A stretch of 64,000 nucleotides of DNA from Candidatus Phyllobacterium onerii (GTDB lineage Bacteria; Pseudomonadota; Alphaproteobacteria; Rhizobiales; Rhizobiaceae). The stretch is taken from the NCBI RefSeq assembly GCF_028331445.1, contig NZ_JAQMHX010000011.1, positions 62,001 to 126,000 on the forward strand. Direction: 5' to 3'. Shown piece after piece: positions 69-64,000 of this stretch. The notes beneath the pieces were generated by a model. It was not told the DNA's origin, did no database searches, and saw nothing but the letters and a program-made list of their open reading frames with translations. The translations under genes and the position numbers were made by a program. The first letter of the stretch is position 1. Each line of letters begins with the position of its first letter.

Positions 69-848
69 TCAAGCGGAGCTGGCGGGACTGGGGCAGCGCC
101 GTCCTGCCTTTGACAAATCCAGATGATCAATGGCCTGCTGCAGCGAACTCCCCTCCAATGTGGTTTCCTCGATCAGGATTGTGGCTAGGTGTTCTACATT
201 AGCTTTTGCTGTGGTGATGATCGCCCTGGCGCGGGCATAAGCATCCACGAGCCGCTCATGGACGGCTGACGCCAGCATCGGCCGCAAGCCAAGGATGCTT
301 GCTTCCACGTCTTTGTCGAAAAAGAGCAACGGCTGGTGTTCGCCGAAACCGAAGGAGCATTCGAGCGTGAATGCTAGTGTCGTCGCCTTGGCGAGGTCGC
401 TGTCGGCCGTTCCTCCGGAGCCAGCCGAGATAGAACCGATTATCACCTCCTCGGCCGCACGTCCCGCCAGGATGCAGGCCAACTCCGCTTCAAGATCGGT
501 TTCCATCGTATCTGCGAGCGGTTTACTCCTCCCCGTATTGAAGGCTCTGCCATCGTGGGTATTGATGCTGATGACATCAATCGTCCCTTGCTGCAGCACC
601 AGCCGCGCCACCGCGTGACCCGCTTCGTGGATCGCGATCCTCTTTAGCGTCTCCGGACTCCCGTTTGATTTGTCGGCGAGGAGCAAACGCTCAAGATCCT
701 CATATGTTATGGTTCTGCCGTCCCGGCGGGCCTCAAGTCGGGCAATCCGCACAAGCCTTTCAACGTCAGCCCCGCTCATGCCCGCTGCCTGCGCTGCCAG
801 ACGGCGCAGCACGCTTGAGGCATCGCCAGCGGCGGTTTCTCTTTCCAT
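69..848 (-). CDS. FtsH-like M41 zinc peptidase carrying the AAA lid at its N-terminus
   Basis: This 259-residue protein resembles the C-terminal half of FtsH. Residues about 20-60 look like the FtsH AAA+ lid (MSGADVERLVRIARLEARR). HEAGH follows near residue 75 with two zinc ligands and the catalytic Glu. A downstream SDLAKAT segment supplies the expected Asp ligand, so the peptidase looks intact. No membrane segment is visible. The ATG at 848 overlaps the stop of the upstream AAA gene (TGATG) and has an AAGGAG six bases before it, so it should be translated as a separate, coupled protein. It probably forms an ATP-dependent protease with that partner. The substrate is unknown. It may be cargo of the neighbouring Tn7-like element. 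Confidence 0.85.
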   Translation of the reverse strand: MERETAAGDASSVLRRLAAQAAGMSGADVERLVRIARLEARRDGRTITYEDLERLLLADKSNGSPETLKRIAIHEAGHAVARLVLQQGTIDVISINTHDGRAFNTGRSKPLADTMETDLEAELACILAGRAAEEVIIGSISAGSGGTADSDLAKATTLAFTLECSFGFGEHQPLLFFDKDVEASILGLRPMLASAVHERLVDAYARARAIITTAKANVEHLATILIEETTLEGSSLQQAIDHLDLSKAGRRCPSPASSA

Positions 849-2695
849 CACTGGCTCCTTCCGTGTTGACCGGTTCGAGGGGAAGTCTCTGGTGGCGGTA
901 CCGGGCGGGTAGCGACGACATGATCGAGATCAGAAGCGAGGTGAAAGCGCAGAATATCTGACAGCGTCCTGATATCGGGAAGTTTGACCGCGAGATGCTT
1001 CTCCAGCCTGCCTGAACGGATGATAGCTCTGTCGACGCTGTCGACGCGGTTGGTGGCAGCGAGAACAACGACCCCCGGCAAATCGGAAATGCCTTGCAAA
1101 AGCTCAAGCATGCGATTGACAGCGGAATTCCAGAAACCGGAGGAATGACCCGACTCCTGGCGTGTGCCGAGCCCATCAATCTCGTCAATGAAAAGGATTG
1201 CGGGTCGAAGCTGGCGTGCTTCTTCAAATGCCGCTTCCATATCCCTGATCAGGTCATCGAGACTTCCGGCCCCGGCCCATGCTGCGACAGACGTGGCAAC
1301 CAAGGGAATTCGCGCCGAATTGCAAAGAGCTTCGGCAAATGTCGTCTTGCCGGTGCCCGGGGGACCGAAGAGCAAGGCTTTGCTTGCAAGTTCATTCCAC
1401 TGCATCGATCCGTTTTTCCACTCCCCGAGACCAAACAGAAGATTTTCCGTCCACGCTCGCGCCTCATCGAATCCTGGCAAGGTTTCCACAGTCGGGACAG
1501 GAACGAGTCCTTGCGGATCGCCGACAGCCTGCGGTTCAATGACTTTGTGGGAGCGCCGCTTGCCCAGGGATTTGGATGCTCTGCGTCCAAAGACCGGGTG
1601 TGGATCGGTTTCATCGTCCTCGGCAATGAATTCTGTCCTTGCGATCGCGAAGCGGTGCAGTTTCTCGAGGGCCTCGTCTGCGGTGTTCCCGGTTCTGATC
1701 GCCGTCGACATGTCGAACAGTGTCAACAATTCGCACAGGTCCTCAGGAATTTTCCCGTCCGGCTCTTCGTCGAGCACAACGCGCATCGTCATTCTGATGA
1801 TTTCCATTGATATCGTTGGCGTTACCAGATTGACCTTTGCCGAAATCTCCATCCATTCCGGCAATGGATCCGGTTTGCTTGCCACCCCAAGAATCGGCAA
1901 CCGGGACTTTACCGCGTTTGCAAGTTTCCACTGCAAGTGCTCGGCCTTTTGCGAGCCCCACTTCGAGCCCTGGAAAACGATCATCTCCCGGGTGGCAATC
2001 TCATTGACCGGTTCCGGCCAAGTGCCACGTCGCGTGATCTTGAAACCATCGATCATCGCATAGGTGCTGCCGGGAATAACAATTCCGAACTCCAGCAAAT
2101 CGATGAGGACATCCTCCACTCCCTCAACGGGTGCATAGAAATTGATGAACGGCTGCGGCTCCCGCAGAATTCGACGAATCCCCGCAAGTCCGCCTTGCAC
2201 TTTCTCCAATGCAGCCGCCAGAAGCAGGCAGGTGCAGACCTCTGCCGTATCTGGTCGCTGCGCCAAGCCGCGGATGAATCCTGCAGCAGTACACGTCGAC
2301 TCGAAACGATCCTCACCGTGGGGCTGAGCGCCGGCCCGCAACGATTCCTGACCCGACAAAGGATTCGAGCGGCGGTACCCAGGATCACGCTCAGCACTTA
2401 TACTGGCAACCTCATCGACCTCATCCCATTCGTCGTTCAATTGGGCGCACATGGTTTCGAGCGTCGGCGGTCCTACATCTCGTGAGGCGGAAAGCGGTCC
2501 TTTGAACACCTTCATAAGGTGGCCTACGGTTTCCGGATTAACCCCAGGTGACAAATCAAACGCCGAAATGGCATGTCCATCCACCGTAGTAGTTCGCTGT
2601 TGAAGGATCCCTTTTGCAAGCGCTCGACCAGCCAATCTCCGTTTTTCGCGGCGGACAAGGCGTTGAAGGAAATATGGTATAATTTTGGAGACCAT
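848..2695 (-). CDS. AAA+ ATPase, FtsH-like core without lid or membrane anchor
   Basis: This 615-residue protein has about 400 N-terminal residues I do not recognise, followed by an FtsH/CDC48-type AAA+ core. Walker A is GPPGTGKT (about 444-451), Walker B is ILFIDE (about 500-505), a sensor-like AATNRVD follows, and RSGR sits at the arginine-finger region. The protein ends just where the AAA lid should start; the lid is at the N-terminus of the next gene. FtsH has two N-terminal membrane helices, and none are seen here, so it is probably cytosolic. It is translationally coupled to the M41 peptidase and divergent from an Xre regulator. The likely role is unfolding substrates for the peptidase. 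Confidence 0.85.
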   Translation of the reverse strand: MVSKIIPYFLQRLVRREKRRLAGRALAKGILQQRTTTVDGHAISAFDLSPGVNPETVGHLMKVFKGPLSASRDVGPPTLETMCAQLNDEWDEVDEVASISAERDPGYRRSNPLSGQESLRAGAQPHGEDRFESTCTAAGFIRGLAQRPDTAEVCTCLLLAAALEKVQGGLAGIRRILREPQPFINFYAPVEGVEDVLIDLLEFGIVIPGSTYAMIDGFKITRRGTWPEPVNEIATREMIVFQGSKWGSQKAEHLQWKLANAVKSRLPILGVASKPDPLPEWMEISAKVNLVTPTISMEIIRMTMRVVLDEEPDGKIPEDLCELLTLFDMSTAIRTGNTADEALEKLHRFAIARTEFIAEDDETDPHPVFGRRASKSLGKRRSHKVIEPQAVGDPQGLVPVPTVETLPGFDEARAWTENLLFGLGEWKNGSMQWNELASKALLFGPPGTGKTTFAEALCNSARIPLVATSVAAWAGAGSLDDLIRDMEAAFEEARQLRPAILFIDEIDGLGTRQESGHSSGFWNSAVNRMLELLQGISDLPGVVVLAATNRVDSVDRAIIRSGRLEKHLAVKLPDIRTLSDILRFHLASDLDHVVATRPVPPPETSPRTGQHGRSQ

Positions 2696-2979: not shown

Positions 2980-3222
2980 ATGGAGCCACCTTCAGCCCTC
3001 TTACGTGCCGCACGCGTTGCCTTGGACATAAGCCAAAGCGAACTGGCTAACCGATGCGGTTTGAGCAAACGTACTGTCTATAACGTTGAACAGGGACAAG
3101 GAACTCTCGACACTATCCACCGTATTCGAAAAACCTTGGAGAGTGAGGGCATCAAGTTTCTGCTAAGCGAAGACGACCCGGCATATTGGCCAGGATTCCG
3201 AGTTGACCCGAGCATACTTTAA
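2980..3222 (+). CDS. Xre-family HTH transcriptional regulator
   Basis: This 80-residue protein is almost entirely one Xre/Cro helix-turn-helix domain: LLRAARVALDISQSELA, then a recognition helix in CGLSKRTVYNVEQG, then IHRIRKTLESEGIKFL. This is the single-domain type found in mobile elements and toxin-antitoxin loci. The ATG at 2980 is used here. TTG at 2971 is an alternative because AGGGGG at 2961-2966 lies only four bases before it. The gene is divergent from the AAA/M41 pair, and the three 21-bp repeats upstream are plausible binding sites, so it probably represses itself, the AAA/M41 operon or both. No toxin partner follows directly. Confidence 0.8.
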   Translation: MEPPSALLRAARVALDISQSELANRCGLSKRTVYNVEQGQGTLDTIHRIRKTLESEGIKFLLSEDDPAYWPGFRVDPSIL

Positions 3223-3831
3223 CGAGAGTGATGCCGGCTACCTGATCGCATCGGTCTTTGCAAGACCCTTAGCTGCAGCACTCAATAGTACTTATTTTAA
3301 GTCGCTTGATTGCGGAGTGGAATCCGCGAACTCGCAATCACTTACGCCTCGATCAAAAATGTCAACAATACTTTGCTTCTTTGCATTCTCACGGAGTCCT
3401 TTTCAAATCCGCCAAGCGAATTAGAGGTATTCACCATCCCCTAACCATGGAGAAAAATTCGCATCGAAATAGTATAATTATGCGTAATGAAAGCAGAAAT
3501 TATAAATTAATACCGTTTACTCTTGTCTTTCAATGTTATAAATAGGTATAGTCGGGTTAGGCGAGCGATTAGCATCGCCATGGTTCGGGGCAAGAGAAAC
3601 TCTTACTCTTGATACACCATCGTCTATCGGCGTATAGATGAAAATTTGTTATTTTTCTCCTTTACAAATGGCAAAAAATACTATATCTTACATTTTTCTG
3701 AAAGTAACACTCGAATAGTCGGCGAGCAAAACTCTCGCCGCGGTGACGTGCCACGAAACGATTGTGAAGTCGCGCCAGCATCGCCGGGGAGACCGGCCTG
3801 GCAACTTACAACACCATTGATCGAGGTCACT
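3223..3831. other. AT-rich intergenic stretch with no convincing gene
   Basis: These 609 bases between the Xre and PIN-like genes contain only short frames with unnatural composition. The middle part (about 3440-3560) is notably AT-rich. It may hold promoters for the transposition genes or remains of lost genes. No tRNA-like or CRISPR-like structure was seen. Confidence 0.5.
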
Positions 3832-4558: not shown

Positions 4559-4696
4559 ATGTTTAAGCCACGCTCTCTCCTGGACGCCAAACTTCAGTCC
4601 CGCGCGTTTGGCATTTCAGATGGTCCATCCGTTGCAAATGACGATTTTGCAGGGTGGCGCGGCAAAACCTTGGTAGGAGGCTATCATATAGCGTAG
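4559..4696 (+). CDS. Small ORF before tnsA, 45 residues
   Basis: This 45-residue frame begins MFKPRSLLDAKLQSRAF and has a strong ribosome binding site (GAAAGG eight bases before the ATG). It overlaps the start of the TnsA frame by about 40 bases. It has no match I recognise. It could be a leader peptide coupling translation into tnsA. Alternatively it could be the true N-terminus of TnsA joined by a frameshift or sequence error, since TnsA itself has no good start codon. Confidence 0.5.
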   Translation: MFKPRSLLDAKLQSRAFGISDGPSVANDDFAGWRGKTLVGGYHIA

Positions 4697-5388
4697 CTGC
4701 CAATGACGACAGCTGGTCGTGTGACAGGCCCGCCATCCATATTGATGAATCCGTAGCGATGCGCGAGCCTAAGAAAAGGAAACGTGGGTCGAAGATTGGC
4801 TTTATTATCGATCCCTTCCGGCGACGGAAGATCTGGTACGAGAGTGGTCTGGAGGAAAATTTGCTTAGTGTACTCGTGGCAATGCCGACTGTGGCGGAAG
4901 TCCGAGAACAACAATTAGTCAGGTTCGTCAGACAGGGGCGTGATCGTAAGCATTTCTTTGATTTTATTGTCCGCTGGACCGACGGCTCGGTGACAGCATT
5001 TGCTGCTAAGTACAGTCAGGATATCGACCGCGAGCTCTTGCTTGACTTATGTGCGATCAGGGACTCGCTTGGCGACGTTGTCGCCGACGAATATTCCACC
5101 CTAAGCGAAACTGACTTCGACCAGATCACGATTGAAAATTCGAAACTGATCATTGCCAGTGCACGGGATTTCGACTTCGAGGGACAACGCGCCGTGAGGA
5201 TGCTGTTGCACTCAGTTGGCCGCGAAGTACGGCTAGGCGAAATCGCTAGTGCAACTGGCCTTGGCGAACGCGGGTACCGCGCAGCTCTGAGTTTGGTCCA
5301 GAGTGGCGATCTTGTTTGCGCCGCGAACAAACCGCTTGAACCTAGCGCATTGGTCTTTAACGCACTTCACGGATGTGAAGCGCGTTAA
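4654..5388 (+). CDS. tnsA: TnsA-like transposon endonuclease
   Basis: TnsA cuts the 5' ends of Tn7-like elements while TnsB cuts the 3' ends, giving cut-and-paste movement. This 244-residue protein has a restriction-endonuclease-like core: Glu in ESGLEENLL (about 63-68), Asp in FFDFIVRW (about 103) and Lys in FAAKYSQD (about 119). That is the E-D-K order of TnsA, with Ala where TnsA has Gln before the Lys. A C-terminal helical region follows (about 175-244), plausibly the TnsC-contacting part. The GTG at 4654 has a poor ribosome binding site; an ATG at 4759 would drop 35 residues of basic, low-complexity sequence. It is the first gene of the tnsABC-tniQ operon. Confidence 0.8.
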   Translation: MARQNLGRRLSYSVAANDDSWSCDRPAIHIDESVAMREPKKRKRGSKIGFIIDPFRRRKIWYESGLEENLLSVLVAMPTVAEVREQQLVRFVRQGRDRKHFFDFIVRWTDGSVTAFAAKYSQDIDRELLLDLCAIRDSLGDVVADEYSTLSETDFDQITIENSKLIIASARDFDFEGQRAVRMLLHSVGREVRLGEIASATGLGERGYRAALSLVQSGDLVCAANKPLEPSALVFNALHGCEAR

Positions 5389-5460
5389 ACATTGGTCACC
5401 GATTTTATTTAACAGATTCCAACCGGCACGTCGAAATCAACGAGCTTAGGCGGGGATAAC

Positions 5461-7719
5461 ATGACAGATCGAAGGGAGCGCGCGCATCTATTCGGACGCC
5501 ATGACCGTTTGGTCATCGACGGCCAGTGCTACAGGGTCGACGACAAAGTAAAAGGTGTCCACTACCTGCAACTAATCAACGACAATCTGATCGAAGATTT
5601 CTTCGTCACTAAAACTGACCGAGAAATCAATGATCTGATTTCAAAAAATCGGCTTCGGATCGATGAGGGATACTTTTCGAAGACCTTGTCGCTGTTGCGT
5701 ATGAAATACGACAGCTCCGACCTCGGTGATCTATCGGAAGATGAGCTGCGCACCGTGGCCTGGAAAAAAGAATGGTGCGTCAGGTTTCTTACGAACTCCG
5801 GAGATCGAGCCGCGGCTTGGAGGCCTAGTCGCAATCCGGCGGATATGAAGCAGTTCATTTCAAATGAGATGGACAACATGGATCAATGGTACTTGGATCA
5901 ATTCGGCACACGTCGTCCGCCAGGCCGCCGTCGAAAAGGAGAACTCCGAAAGGCATTCGATTATCCCAGCGCAAGCACACTTCGCGACTGGTTGAAGCTT
6001 TTCGCTAAATTCAAATATCGCATGGACGCCTTCCGTCCGAACTACGCGGAGTGTGGAAATCGCAATCAGCTCGACACGCGCGCTCTGGCACTCATTGAGG
6101 AAGAGGTCAAAAAGTTTGGCAGCGTTCTCCGACCGCTTATGGGCGATATTTATGAGAATATTGAAGCAAAGTTTTATGAATTTAACAAGAACTTAGACGG
6201 GAAACATCATATCAAGGTAAGCGACAAAGCAGTCCGCAGAAGAATCCACATGATGGACCCCTTTCTTTTAGACGCTGCTCGATATGGTGAAGATTATGCT
6301 TTGCGTAAGTATACCCCCGTAGGCAGGGGAATGGTTGTGACGCGCTTGCTCGAGCACACTGAGATGGATGACTGGGAAGCCGACCTACACACGCTCATTG
6401 TGAAGTCCAGCGTCTGGAATAAACTTTCTAAAGAGGCTAAAGCAAAGGTCCCACGTACCCGTTGCACCCTCACTATCGGCATCGAAAAGTTGAGTAGATG
6501 TGTCGTCGGGATGCATCTGAGTCCCCACCCTCCTTCAGCTGCCACAGCGAAATCGGCGCTTCGCTCCATCATGATCGACAAGTCGCCGCAAGCCAAGTTC
6601 GCGGGAGCAAAGAGCGACTGGAACATGCACGGTACACCAGAATATCTGTCGACCGACGGTGGGGCAGTTTTTCTCGGAGAGTATGAAGAAGCTCTTCGCA
6701 TGTCGGCGGTTTCGCGGAGTCTGCCCGAAAAGGATCCGAGGATGCGTGGGACGGTAGAATCGTTCTTTCGGACGCTCAAACGGCTTTGTCGCTATTTTGC
6801 TGGAAGGTCGTTTGCCAACGTTGTCGAAAAGGGAGACTACCCCGCCGAAAAAATGGCATCGTTAACTTATCAGGAATTCTATAAGTCGCTCATCATTTTT
6901 ATCGTGGACTATTATCACCATCGAGCTCATCGCGGTCTAAACGGCGGAACTCCGTATGGCAAATGGCATTCGGAGGCCTCTCGAGGTCTTCCCCCTACCC
7001 GTTCCAGACAGCAGATTATTGTGGCATTTGGCCTGCGCGACACCAGAAAAGTTGACAAAGAAGGCATTACCTATGTCAACCAACAGTACCATTCTGAAGA
7101 CTTGGGAGCATTGTATCCTTTAGTTGGAGATATGTTGCTCGATATTATTATCGATCCTGATGACCTCAGCATGATCCTCGTCCGTGTTCCAAAATATGTG
7201 AAGGACCGCAAAGCGTTTGAAAACAAGGATTATATCGAGGCTAAATGTCAGACGGCGTTTCGAGAAGGCGTGACGTTGGTTGATGTGCTGGAAGCCAACA
7301 AAGACGTTATGGAAGAAGTCCGAAAGCAGCAAGAGGCAGGCCGGCCAATCCGCTTGGCGGCCCATGGCAAATTGCTCGATATTGCAGAGGATGGCCAACG
7401 TATTGCCGGGGTGCCGGCGGCCGAAATTACGCAAAAAGACTATGACTCCATTAAACGTCGACTGGAGCGTAAGGGTAAAGCTGCGCTGACCGGCGTAAAC
7501 TATGCCGAAGCGCCCGTGATCACCGAGAGCGGTCGACCTGGCAAAGTCGTCGCCGAATCCGCTCGAACTAAACCACGTGCTCCGGGCAAGACACCGTCAG
7601 AGTTAGAGTCCTCTGGTCCAACCGATGTCATCGTAAAACAATTAGTTGAGGACAGCGCCTCCTTGCCTCGGCCGCTCAAATTCTCTGATTCAATGAACGT
7701 GCCAGGAGAAGACGAATGA
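5461..7719 (+). CDS. tnsB: TnsB-like DDE transposase
   Basis: This 752-residue protein is the catalytic transposase. It binds the element ends and performs 3'-end cleavage and strand transfer. The rve/RNase H core carries Asp in DDWEADLH (about 308), Asp in STDGGAVF (about 399) and Glu in MRGTVESFF (about 433), a full DDE triad. The N-terminal 250 residues should hold the helix-turn-helix DNA-binding domains. After about 520 come a Mu-type beta-barrel region and a long polar tail that may contact TnsC. GGCGGGG precedes the ATG. The 3' end overlaps tnsC by four bases (ATGA), so the two are translationally coupled. Length suits TnsB (about 700 residues). Confidence 0.93.
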   Translation: MTDRRERAHLFGRHDRLVIDGQCYRVDDKVKGVHYLQLINDNLIEDFFVTKTDREINDLISKNRLRIDEGYFSKTLSLLRMKYDSSDLGDLSEDELRTVAWKKEWCVRFLTNSGDRAAAWRPSRNPADMKQFISNEMDNMDQWYLDQFGTRRPPGRRRKGELRKAFDYPSASTLRDWLKLFAKFKYRMDAFRPNYAECGNRNQLDTRALALIEEEVKKFGSVLRPLMGDIYENIEAKFYEFNKNLDGKHHIKVSDKAVRRRIHMMDPFLLDAARYGEDYALRKYTPVGRGMVVTRLLEHTEMDDWEADLHTLIVKSSVWNKLSKEAKAKVPRTRCTLTIGIEKLSRCVVGMHLSPHPPSAATAKSALRSIMIDKSPQAKFAGAKSDWNMHGTPEYLSTDGGAVFLGEYEEALRMSAVSRSLPEKDPRMRGTVESFFRTLKRLCRYFAGRSFANVVEKGDYPAEKMASLTYQEFYKSLIIFIVDYYHHRAHRGLNGGTPYGKWHSEASRGLPPTRSRQQIIVAFGLRDTRKVDKEGITYVNQQYHSEDLGALYPLVGDMLLDIIIDPDDLSMILVRVPKYVKDRKAFENKDYIEAKCQTAFREGVTLVDVLEANKDVMEEVRKQQEAGRPIRLAAHGKLLDIAEDGQRIAGVPAAEITQKDYDSIKRRLERKGKAALTGVNYAEAPVITESGRPGKVVAESARTKPRAPGKTPSELESSGPTDVIVKQLVEDSASLPRPLKFSDSMNVPGEDE

Positions 7720-8798
7720 CCCGCGTGAAAGCTCTTGGAAGGCCAGTCAAATCCTCTTCATCTATGCCAAGCGAAGCGTCGGCTACACCACTTGATGATT
7801 TTTCTGATGACGACTTCTTCGATTCAATTATTACCAAACTACCGGCCAAAAGTCGGGAAACGATCGAAATCATCAGTAAGGTCAAGAGCACATATATCAC
7901 CAGCGGTAGAGACGCTGTTTTGAAGAACTCGTTTGACGATTTTCTAGAGAAAATGTTTGCACGACGCAACGGGCTCCGGGACGACGGGCGTGCTTTCTTC
8001 GTCACCGGCGCTAGTGGTGCCGGAAAAACTTATTCGATCGAACATCTGCTAGCCGAGAACGAGACGATGCAACCCCAGGTGAAGTCGTTTGGAACTATCA
8101 AACCCGTGATCTCGGTTGCGCTGCTAGGGCCCTCCACACTCAAAATTCTCGGTCGGAGTATCTTGCGGCAAGCAGGATACGAACTGGTCCAGAACATGGA
8201 ACAGGGCGAGATCTGGGACATGTTGCCAGCCCAGCTTCACCACCGAAAAGTTCTCATTATCCATGTTGACGAAACTCAACACATGTTGAAGCAGACAAAG
8301 ACCGACACGGAGCGAGAGAACCTCGCAAAAGCCTTCAAAGGCGTGATGAATTATAAACCATGGCCGGTAAGCTTCATCATGTCGGGAATGCCGGAAACAA
8401 CGGAGCTTGCGAGACTCGATGAACAAATTGAGCGACGCGGGTACTACATCGATCTACCGGATATTGAACTACCGGAGAGCCGCGCCCTAGTTCTAAAGAT
8501 CATCAACAAATCTGCTGAAGCGGCGGGCTTACAAGCAGACAAGGTCGTCAACAGCGATCTTCCGGAACGTATCACCCATGCGGCACGATATAGATTTGGT
8601 CGCATTACCCAAGTCATGTTGGAAGCAATTCAGGTTGCGTTGAAACGAGGGGATCCACATCTAAGCCGGGAACACTTCGCCTACGCGTACCTTGGACTAT
8701 CGCACGCTAGAGGTCATGATGAGATGAACCCGTTTCTCGTTGACGACTGGGAACGGTTGCCTCCGGGTTCATTCTTAAAAAAGTGGCGCGATGACTGA
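7716..8798 (+). CDS. tnsC: TnsC-like AAA+ transposition regulator
   Basis: TnsC/TniB ATPases assemble on target DNA and link the target selector (TniQ) to the transposase. This 360-residue protein has Walker A GASGAGKT (about 98-105) and Walker B VLIIHVDE (about 179-186) followed by TQHM, typical of the TniB/TnsC family. A sensor-like MSGMPET and a C-terminal AAA lid follow. An acidic Ser-rich N-terminus (about 15-40) may be the part that contacts TnsA or TnsB. It overlaps tnsB by ATGA and tniQ by TGATG. It is shorter than E. coli TnsC (about 555) and similar in size to TniB-like forms. Confidence 0.92.
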   Translation: MTRVKALGRPVKSSSSMPSEASATPLDDFSDDDFFDSIITKLPAKSRETIEIISKVKSTYITSGRDAVLKNSFDDFLEKMFARRNGLRDDGRAFFVTGASGAGKTYSIEHLLAENETMQPQVKSFGTIKPVISVALLGPSTLKILGRSILRQAGYELVQNMEQGEIWDMLPAQLHHRKVLIIHVDETQHMLKQTKTDTERENLAKAFKGVMNYKPWPVSFIMSGMPETTELARLDEQIERRGYYIDLPDIELPESRALVLKIINKSAEAAGLQADKVVNSDLPERITHAARYRFGRITQVMLEAIQVALKRGDPHLSREHFAYAYLGLSHARGHDEMNPFLVDDWERLPPGSFLKKWRDD

Positions 8799-10747
8799 TG
8801 CGTGGACGGGTACATAAGCCACTCGATTGGCACCATGGTCTGGAGCGGCGCGAAACCGTTGCAGGATTTGCTTCGCGGCTGGCGGCATTGAACGGAAGAA
8901 GCATGCCGCGTTTTCTTCGCGACATGATGATCCACCCCAGAACTGTCGACAAATCTGACACGGCAGCCCTCAAAGCAGTCGCCATACTCGGCAACGCGAA
9001 TTGCGAAATGCTATCTCGATATACTCCCGAACCGCTGGGCGATAAATTCTATCTTGTGAACGGCCAGCAGTTTGGACGCTTGTCAATCAGCCGTACGTAT
9101 TTTCGCTACTGCGCTCACTGTATCCAAGAAGATCTCCGATCTTACGAAGGCCCGCCAACCGCGCGTCCTTGGTTACGCTTGGAATGGACTCTCACTCACT
9201 TTCGTTCTTGCGTACGTCATCAAGTTTTTCTCGACAGTTATCATCCGGACCGCAGAAGATTCGAGCCTTTCGATTTCTCTCGGGCAGTCGCGGGGCTTAT
9301 CCCGAACCTTGGGGAAATCCTTGTCGCTTCTGTGAACGCTCTCCCATCTCCTTTTCAGGACTGGCTACTTCACAGGATTGACGGTGGAAAAAATGAAGAG
9401 AATTGGCTGGACGATGTGCCGCTGTATGCGGCAGTCAGCTTTTGCGAAGCGCTGGGCGTGTCAGCTCTGCATCCGCCAAAAGTAAAAACGAGCTTGTTAA
9501 CCGAACCTCAATGGGCTGAAGCCGCCGACAGAGGCTATGCGATCGCGCGCGCGGGGCCTGACGCCATTTGCGCACTGCTTGAAAAACTCAATCAACTGCA
9601 ATCCAAAACCCGAGGAGTTTGGGGGCCGCGAGACACTTATGGCCTGGTCTACGGTCTTCTACAAAAAACAGTGAGCGATCCTGCTTACGATAAATTCCGG
9701 CGGTTGGTCCGAGAATTTGCCATCAAAACTATGCCCATCGAGCCCGGGACAGATGTGCTCGGTGTAGTCGTCCATAAACGGGTCGTTCATACAATTCGAA
9801 CTGCATCTCGTGACTCCGGAGCGCATGCGCTTACGATCCGTAAACTCTTTGAGGGGCGCGGTATCACCGACGGCAGATACGCGTCAGGACTTGTCGATCA
9901 CCGGGTAACTGTCGATGCCTCTGAGATTCATAGCGTTGTCGTATCTTTAAGGAATGCACTCAGCACCCCTCAAGTCGAGAAAATGACGGGTATCCCACGA
10001 ATTCCGCTAAAAGTGCTCATCGCTGACGGTTATCTGTCAACGATTACAGGGTCTACAGGCAAGGCATACGCCAAACACCGTTTTTCAAAGAGCGAAATCG
10101 ATTGCCTCATGGATAGGCTTTTTGAGGGAGCGGTTTTAGTAACAGATCCGGGAGAAAGGCAACTGCCGGTACAATATGCCAGGCATGCTGCCTGCGCTTC
10201 GAATTCCCAGATTTTGTCGCTGATCATGGTCGGAGAATTAAAGTGGAAGGGACGGCTTGCAGGCACGTCTGACTACACTGGCCTGCTGGTTGATGCCGAT
10301 GAGATTACTCGGATTGTTCGTTCCGACGTCCAAAAGATCGGGCTGACCAAGGTCGAGTTAAAAAACTTCATTCCGGGCATGGGCCGCGACTCCGTCGCAA
10401 AATTCATTCGCGATGGTCAGCTTGAAACCGTGGAAGAATTCAATCCGGAAGCCAGGAGAATTTCGACTGTCGTTTCGAGGTCCAGCGCGCAGAAGTTTCT
10501 CGATACCTACGTCTCGCTGGGTGAGCTTACTCAGCGCAGCGGCTTGCACCACAAGCAGGTGCGATTGTTGTTAAGGGCGGTAGGAATTGAGGCGTCTTTT
10601 GATCCGGACGAGTACCAATCATTTTTTTACCAGCGCGAGCAGGTGGACAAAGCCCAGAACATTGATCCAAATTTCTGGCAATATGATAAGGCTCAAGCGC
10701 AGAATTTGGCAAAACGAGTCGACTGTAATCCGGTCCATATTGGTTGA
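8798..10747 (+). CDS. tniQ: TniQ/TnsD-like target-site selector
   Basis: TniQ-family proteins choose the insertion site, either by binding a fixed attachment site (TnsD) or through other targeting factors. The N-terminal part fits TniQ: GLERRETVAGFASRLAALNG, then a zinc-finger pattern YCAHC (Cys about 105 and 108) and CVRH (Cys about 138, His about 141). The remaining roughly 450 residues probably form helix-turn-helix modules (for example LTQRSGLHHKQVRLLLRAVG near 590), as in the long TnsD type that reads a specific DNA sequence. The length (649 residues) is closer to TnsD (about 508) than to the short CRISPR-linked TniQ, which fits the absence of Cas genes. It is the last gene of the transposition operon. 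Confidence 0.88.
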   Translation: MRGRVHKPLDWHHGLERRETVAGFASRLAALNGRSMPRFLRDMMIHPRTVDKSDTAALKAVAILGNANCEMLSRYTPEPLGDKFYLVNGQQFGRLSISRTYFRYCAHCIQEDLRSYEGPPTARPWLRLEWTLTHFRSCVRHQVFLDSYHPDRRRFEPFDFSRAVAGLIPNLGEILVASVNALPSPFQDWLLHRIDGGKNEENWLDDVPLYAAVSFCEALGVSALHPPKVKTSLLTEPQWAEAADRGYAIARAGPDAICALLEKLNQLQSKTRGVWGPRDTYGLVYGLLQKTVSDPAYDKFRRLVREFAIKTMPIEPGTDVLGVVVHKRVVHTIRTASRDSGAHALTIRKLFEGRGITDGRYASGLVDHRVTVDASEIHSVVVSLRNALSTPQVEKMTGIPRIPLKVLIADGYLSTITGSTGKAYAKHRFSKSEIDCLMDRLFEGAVLVTDPGERQLPVQYARHAACASNSQILSLIMVGELKWKGRLAGTSDYTGLLVDADEITRIVRSDVQKIGLTKVELKNFIPGMGRDSVAKFIRDGQLETVEEFNPEARRISTVVSRSSAQKFLDTYVSLGELTQRSGLHHKQVRLLLRAVGIEASFDPDEYQSFFYQREQVDKAQNIDPNFWQYDKAQAQNLAKRVDCNPVHIG

Positions 10748-10785: not shown

Positions 10786-10971
10786 TCAAGCAGCCCTGAC
10801 AGCGGCCTGCGGCGTCTCGCCAGGCTCGATTGCACCAGCGGGCAGACTCCATCCTTCCCCTGAAGCCTTCGCCGTGAACGCACCAGAAGCAAATGAATGA
10901 GTTCTTGGCGACCCTGAACGGAACTTTGGGTCCGTTTGGAACAGAACTTTGGGTCCGCAGAAAATAGCCAA
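10786..10971 (-). pseudogene. Remnant of a Nudix hydrolase gene
   Basis: The reverse strand reads GEGWSLPAGAIEPGETPQAAVRAA and then stops. This matches the first part of a Nudix box (WxLPxGxIEPGETPxxAAxRE), but the REUxEExG half is absent. The upstream part does not look like a normal Nudix N-terminus and runs through the GGAAC-type repeats. It is a broken gene next to the transposition operon, either old cargo or an insertion target cut at the Nudix box. Confidence 0.55.

Positions 10972-63062: not shown

Positions 63063-64000
<938 letters not shown>

Follow-up and report, generated by a model that had tools for sequence, protein, structure and literature searches.

The window analysed here, a stretch of 64,000 nucleotides from Candidatus Phyllobacterium onerii (contig NZ_JAQMHX010000011.1, positions 62,001 to 126,000), carries on its reverse strand two adjacent genes, called gene 1 and gene 2 in the following, over which the parts of an FtsH-like protease are distributed. 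As far as can be judged from their sequences, the two genes probably encode one soluble ATP-dependent zinc protease that consists of two chains and has a composite ATP site. The features of the pair, in positions of the window, are the following:

69..848 or 69..851, minus strand: gene 2, an AAA lid fused to an M41 peptidase, 259 amino acids (260 amino acids from GTG), from the Pfam scan
132..650, minus strand: M41 zinc peptidase domain of gene 2, with HEAGH at 615-629
681..812, minus strand: AAA lid near the N-terminus of gene 2, containing a GAD motif (AAA_lid_3, residues 15-54)
846..860, minus strand: junction, with AAGGAG at 855-860, the gene-1 stop TGA at 848-850 and the gene-2 start GTG at 849-851 or ATG at 846-848
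848..2695, minus strand: gene 1, an AAA core protein of 615 amino acids with neither lid nor peptidase, in which the lid profile finds nothing
926..1495, minus strand: AAA core region, residues 401-590 of gene 1, from the family core profile
1175..1192, minus strand: Walker B, FIDEID, from sequence and family alignment
1343..1366, minus strand: Walker A, GPPGTGKT, from sequence and family alignment
1619..2278, minus strand: conserved N-terminal region of gene 1, residues ~140-359, from family alignments, possibly a degenerate AAA module

The Pfam scan finds the AAA core (PF00004) of gene 1 at residues 441-571 with 102.5 bits, and neither a lid nor an M41 match in the same protein. Besides Walker A and Walker B, the arginines of the second region of homology (SRH) are present. 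Gene 2 starts with the lid, which scores 28.3 bits against a cut-off of 27.2 for AAA_lid_3, and continues with Peptidase_M41 (PF01434) at residues 67-239, which scores 72.1 bits against a gathering cut-off of 29.9. Together with this score, HEAGH and an SDL motif place gene 2 among the M41 peptidases. S150 and D151 of SDL are invariant in 35 aligned gene-2 proteins, as are the lid residues G, A and D, and the SDL region is presumably the source of the third zinc ligand. Moreover, the gene-2 profile matches solved FtsH chains such as 2ce7. The genome also encodes a separate canonical FtsH of 647 amino acids, in which the family profiles place the core at residues 160-344, the lid at 355-391 and M41 at 419-601. 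In the window the same three profiles lie at residues 401-590 of gene 1, 14-57 of gene 2 and 68-240 of gene 2. Core, lid and M41 thus tile one canonical FtsH over two chains, and therefore the cut corresponds to the core-lid hinge, as an earlier sequence-only reading of this DNA had proposed. The start of gene 2, GTG or ATG, overlaps the stop of gene 1, and gene 2 is read in a different frame from its own ribosome-binding site, with AAGGAG six bases before the ATG; that gene 2 has its own AAGGAG and ATG had been claimed before and is correct. The same applies to the claimed lack of membrane helices. The highest mean hydropathy over 19 residues is only 1.47 in gene 1 and 1.35 in gene 2, and therefore no transmembrane helix is indicated in the pair by this simple hydropathy test. 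Among the split loci described below, a segment of at least 1.8 occurs in 8/69 gene-1 and 4/69 gene-2 proteins.

The N-terminal ~400 residues of gene 1, which had been described as unknown, indeed have no Pfam assignment, but residues 140-359 are conserved across the family. A suggestion is that this region is a degenerate AAA module. In profile comparisons with AAA it reaches probabilities of 1.5 and 2.0 percent, and 2/150 column-shuffled templates score at least as high, the best of these higher. A search of solved structures with the region gave one chance-level match only (E 1.5).

The division into two genes is shared by many relatives. For each half the best 120 matches of a protein database search were listed, and among these matches P0002-P0024 are core-only proteins without M41, whereas many of P0121-P0240 are lid-M41 or M41-only proteins of ~220-310 amino acids, with fused ones besides. 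We examined 110 loci, namely 14 (from 80), 80 regions, 15 regions and the window; the 80 regions comprise all listed rows down to 227.9 bits plus a selection below. A locus was called split when its best M41 open reading frame (ORF) has a lid but lacks a core, and the core lies on a separate ORF; the lid on gene 2 is thus part of the definition. By this rule 69 loci are split, 33 are fused and 8 belong to neither class; the distinct split loci number 68, the window included, as L218 repeats L007. None of the 69 gene-1 proteins of split loci has a match to the lid profile or to M41. The motif counts cover 69 split rows (the 68 loci and the pair P0002/P0123), with Walker A intact in 67/69, Walker B in 68/69, the arginine finger in 67/69 and HExGH in 67/69. 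The GAD-type motif is found in 67/69 rows, the exceptions being L156 and L217. In the fused rows Walker A is intact in 28/34, HExGH in 31/34 and the GAD-type motif in 29/34. The closest relatives of the window, P0002 (81% identical to gene 1) and P0123 (88% identical to gene 2), come from one Phyllobacterium organism and are split as well, and the gene-1 end TGQHGRSQ is common to the window, P0002 and P0003.

At the junctions of the 69 split loci a start is available in a -4 overlap in 44 cases and in a -8 overlap in 12, a gap of 39-541 bases separates the halves in 11, and 2 are not classified. A Shine-Dalgarno (SD)-like sequence precedes 51 of the 56 overlapping starts. In 9/10 distinct gaps the halves are separated by a DUF6634-type gene (L007, L120, L126, L143, L144, L146, L148, L154, L155), a Pfam name that rests on one member, the others being assigned by profile match. 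The same family elsewhere precedes or follows fused forms.

Both genes are under purifying selection in relatives. Over 12 pairs of relatives other than the window, some loci being used twice, the ratio of nonsynonymous to synonymous substitution rates (dN/dS) is 0.15-0.24 for gene 1 in 11/12 pairs and 0.08-0.30 for gene 2 in 12/12. Core and lid-M41 distances are correlated (r 0.83; 500 permutations reached 0.17 at most). A scan of 297 genomes from the window's family with the gene-1 profile yields, at E ≤ 1e-110, 61 places, with at most 4 candidates scored per genome and the places matched by eye to the fetched loci. Eight of them are fused, and the other 53, spread over 41/297 genomes, are unfused genes, all 53 with an adjacent gene 2. 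The two-component architecture that had been proposed is hence found as a conserved linked pair, with the core on gene 1 and lid and M41 on gene 2. The gene-2 profile, scored on 8-9 candidates per genome at E ≤ 1e-55, had two matches only in 297 genomes sampled from the order, both from the window's family and one being the window itself, and in 289 genomes of the class it matched the window's genome alone. The pair therefore seems confined to one family at this sampling. Among the genera with matches are Phyllobacterium, Agrobacterium, Hoeflea and Neorhizobium. Plasmid records also match gene 2, 12 of them at E ≤ 1e-15, and some of these matches may be fused genes; no match was found among 50,697 phage records at E ≤ 1e-10. 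Three public plasmid records label the core half "ATP-binding protein"; the name given to its partner is "ATP-dependent Zn protease" or "hypothetical protein".

Continuous homologues of 859-896 amino acids (L208-L210) exist in the window's own genus, as does a fourth fused gene, L211. In a joint tree of core and lid-M41 (103 rows, built by a quick method, with support from the Shimodaira-Hasegawa-like approximate likelihood ratio test only), the 69 split rows fall together with 14 fused rows into one group of 83 rows (support 93, not starred). The window and the 81-88% Phyllobacterium pair, both split, are sister to the continuous L208-L210 with support 88, and L211 falls elsewhere. Starred branches alone require at least 2 changes between split and fused, and the tree as a whole requires no fewer than 8; it cannot separate gain from loss of the split. 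A first tree of lid-M41 alone (95 rows) needs 3. The nested fused genes encode 699-953 amino acids, and the linker between core and lid, taken as the distance between profile hits, ranges from 10 to 96 residues in these 14 rows, compared with 3-10 residues in the outgroup, where it could be measured in 16 of the 20 fused rows. The long linkers of the nested genes suggest that the hinge would first have grown long and that fission or re-fusion would then have happened there more than once.

For the two-chain protease the following way of working can be proposed. Gene 2 would build a ring of M41 domains topped by the lids, and six gene-1 cores would dock on these lids, the second chain thereby completing every ATP site in trans. 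Unfolded substrate would then be fed into the M41 chamber by the aromatic pore loops of gene 1, and the overlapping genes would give near-equal amounts of both chains. A study on ClpX reports that the hinge joins the large and small AAA+ domains, that ATP hydrolysis needs parts of both, and that in current models this hinge drives the power stroke (PMC7112951). Because of the requirement for both domains, the gene-1 core should depend on the lid that gene 2 would provide in trans. As a best guess, the pair most likely carries out regulated proteolysis as part of an accessory system borne on islands or plasmids. Going further, it is conceivable, and we put it forward tentatively, that the pair represents a naturally hinge-cut AAA+ motor in which the lid of every subunit would sit on another polypeptide, whose power stroke might pass through non-covalent contacts between core and lid, and whose chain assembly, by completing the ATP sites in trans, might serve as the on-switch; several fissions and re-fusions might have taken place within one bacterial family.

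Several observations weigh against this picture. The same study reports that an altered hinge length or a single deleted hinge largely eliminates ClpX function (PMC7112951), by analogy with which a hinge-less motor would not be expected to work; ClpX belongs to a different AAA+ clade. The gene-1 dN/dS of L165/L166 is 0.60, on very few differences, and any two genes that are linked would be expected to show a mirror-tree correlation. Walker A is missing in L006, a locus cut by its contig end, and in L149, HExGH is missing in L131 and L155, and gene 1 is short or broken in L128, L135, L151 and L172. Among the eight loci outside both classes, L134 and L147 have lid-M41 genes without a visible core, that of L134 being cut by the contig end and that of L147 having 492 upstream bases in which no core gene can be recognised. 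The other six contain lid-less M41 ORFs, beside a fused gene in L170 and L181 and as the only M41 ORF in L178, L184, L186 and L191.

These lid-less standalone ORFs show that M41 can be kept with no AAA module attached to it, and the two chains could be co-expressed and yet act separately, with gene 1 serving as an unfoldase or remodeller and gene 2 as an ATP-independent peptidase. We regard this as unlikely. The lid and its GAD motif, kept in the 35 aligned proteins and in nearly all split rows, would have no evident use lacking a core, a partner adjoins every one of the 53 unfused high-scoring cores, and fused forms lie within the same clade. As a further observation on standalone M41 ORFs, a second AAA ATPase of ~510-530 amino acids (cluster c32) stands beside the protease in L138, L149, L181 and L191, and in L181 and L191 it adjoins the lid-less M41 ORF, perhaps as another split arrangement.

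The surroundings of the pair bear on a second alternative. Two neighbouring features are concerned:

2980..3222, plus strand: divergent Xre-type regulator, 80 amino acids from ATG 2980, with an HTH_3 match
4654-10747: block of TnsA-, TnsB-, TnsC- and TniQ-like genes, from the Pfam scan

The sequence-only reading had taken the pair for a defence or stress cargo module of this Tn7-like transposon with the Xre regulator close by. That the pair is cargo of the neighbouring element and was selected as a defence module is favoured by the closeness of the Tns-like genes and by clusters of restriction-type genes near some related loci. Of 60 split loci, 8 have a C5-methylase-like, 9 an HNH and 5 a type I methylase gene nearby. 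These raw counts come from a neighbour clustering that was affected by shadow ORFs on the antisense strand and by missed genes; one representative each gave the names of the HNH, type I methylase and type I nuclease clusters, and C5-methylase is our own reading. However, within the fetched stretches homologues of the window's TnsB, TnsC and TniQ occur in 0/109 other loci, and a TnsA-like ORF in one. No transposon ends enclosing the pair emerged when the surroundings of the Tn7-like genes were searched for repeats, inverted or direct, and the G+C content per kb is higher in the pair (0.53-0.59) than in the Tn7-like block (0.50-0.53). GGAACTTTGGGTCCG-type repeats are present at 10920, 10943 and 11016, just downstream of the block, and a 10-bp inverted repeat at 2940-2949/10980-10989 flanks it. 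These repeats may mark the ends of the element, and with such ends the pair would lie outside of it. In PADLOC, gene 1 gave only AAA-core matches, the best of them to IetA. The origin as Tn7 cargo is thus decidedly improbable; a defence role of the pair as such is possible, and the evidence for defence or stress is circumstantial. A known defence system was considered and set aside, gene 2 having in PADLOC only a weak match of its lid region (mad1, E 0.0023). One representative each of the neighbour families c1, c2, c3, c5, c11 and c20 gave nothing in PADLOC at E ≤ 0.001. Two further observations concern the window and its genome. A 25-bp inverted match (23/25) links 3244-3268, just downstream of the Xre gene, with 63665-63689 inside a gene that we read as purL-like, and ~5 kb downstream of gene 2 (L196:10289-11059) there is a HEFGH-motif sequence with an in-frame stop, which we take to resemble an ImmA/IrrE-type peptidase.

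Programmed ribosomal frameshifting, by which both frames would be fused into one long protein, would be compatible with the short frame overlaps available in 56/69 loci. It is nevertheless very improbable, because the frame step varies among loci, the -4 class being read in another frame than the -8 class, because the second start is mostly preceded by an SD-like sequence, and because in nine distinct loci a DUF6634-type gene separates the halves. A strain-specific frameshift or decay of a continuous AAA-M41 gene, to which the sequence-only reading would have conceded if continuous relatives of about 870 residues turned up, is the least credible alternative: such relatives do exist in L208-L210, which apart from the 81-88% pair are the nearest to the window, but that pair shares the split and the gene-1 end, the same cut is found in 67 other distinct loci with overlapping starts and SD-like sequences in most of them, dN/dS is low for both parts in 11/12 pairs, and the catalytic motifs of both halves are intact in the window.

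Of the neighbours, the divergent Xre protein would be the most plausible regulator or target of the two-chain protease in the window. Genes like it recur beside 14/109 other loci (4 split, 6 fused, 4 other), always upstream and on the opposite strand, and hence in a minority only; a DUF6634-type gene is present in all 14 of these loci and absent from the window. As regards the conservation of neighbours that had been suggested as a check, the pair itself is conserved, but most split loci lie behind a c1-type gene instead of the Xre gene. According to profiles built from the same loci, 53 of the 63 split loci whose upstream stretch covers 2.5 kb or more have a c1 family gene, always upstream and on the same strand (for example L142:5538-6578, tightly linked to the split protease). 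Its 48 members share a conserved PD...D-x-K motif, which we read as a PD-(D/E)xK nuclease fold; the one member tested had no Pfam match. A small c5/c8-type gene is found upstream in 57/68 split loci, a gene without Pfam match that we call DUF3102-like in 39/68, and a DUF6538-bearing protein, whose motifs read as those of a tyrosine recombinase, in 24/68. The window has none of these four.

If the two-chain reading is true, a conserved family of hinge-less motors together with fused sister forms would allow direct tests of the need for covalent continuity and of a regulatory use of the splitting. Nature may then run such a motor without the hinge that its studied relative ClpX needs. Among the titles and abstract openings listed in searches of open-licence papers we found no description of an AAA+ module split at the hinge, and in the main text of an FtsH review the words "split" and "lid" are absent (PMC9020784).

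Among known systems, the pair is similar to ClpXP and HslUV in that ATPase and peptidase are separate chains. In ClpXP and HslUV, however, each ATPase has a complete AAA module, whereas in the window the module itself is cut and its lid stays attached to the peptidase. IetAS is an anti-phage pair of the ATPase IetA and the subtilisin-type protease IetS. It resembles the window in joining an AAA ATPase gene to a protease gene, and gene 1 matches IetA at 1.9e-17 in PADLOC; this match is confined to the AAA core, and the partner in the window is an M41 metallopeptidase instead of a subtilisin. In FtsH-containing MoxR-vWA conflict systems a catalytically inactive AAA domain is reported to precede the FtsH-type ATPase (PMC7159879), which is the arrangement suspected for the N-terminus of gene 1. 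Neither MoxR nor vWA appeared in the Pfam scan of ten representative neighbours, beyond which no search was made. The soluble fused AAA-M41 relatives (P0025 of Aureimonas, L208-L213) have the same N-terminal region, core, lid and M41 and differ in being one continuous chain, nested among the split forms. FtsH itself (TIGR01241) differs from the pair by its N-terminal transmembrane helices, none of which is indicated in the window, by its single chain, as opposed to a core on gene 1 and lid and M41 on gene 2, and by score, with the two halves reaching 106.5 and 79.8 bits against a curated cut-off of 600. Apart from this, the pair has Walker A, Walker B, the SRH arginines and HExxH like FtsH, and a classical AAA core with SRH, AAA_lid_3 and M41 follow each other along both chains in the same order as in FtsH.

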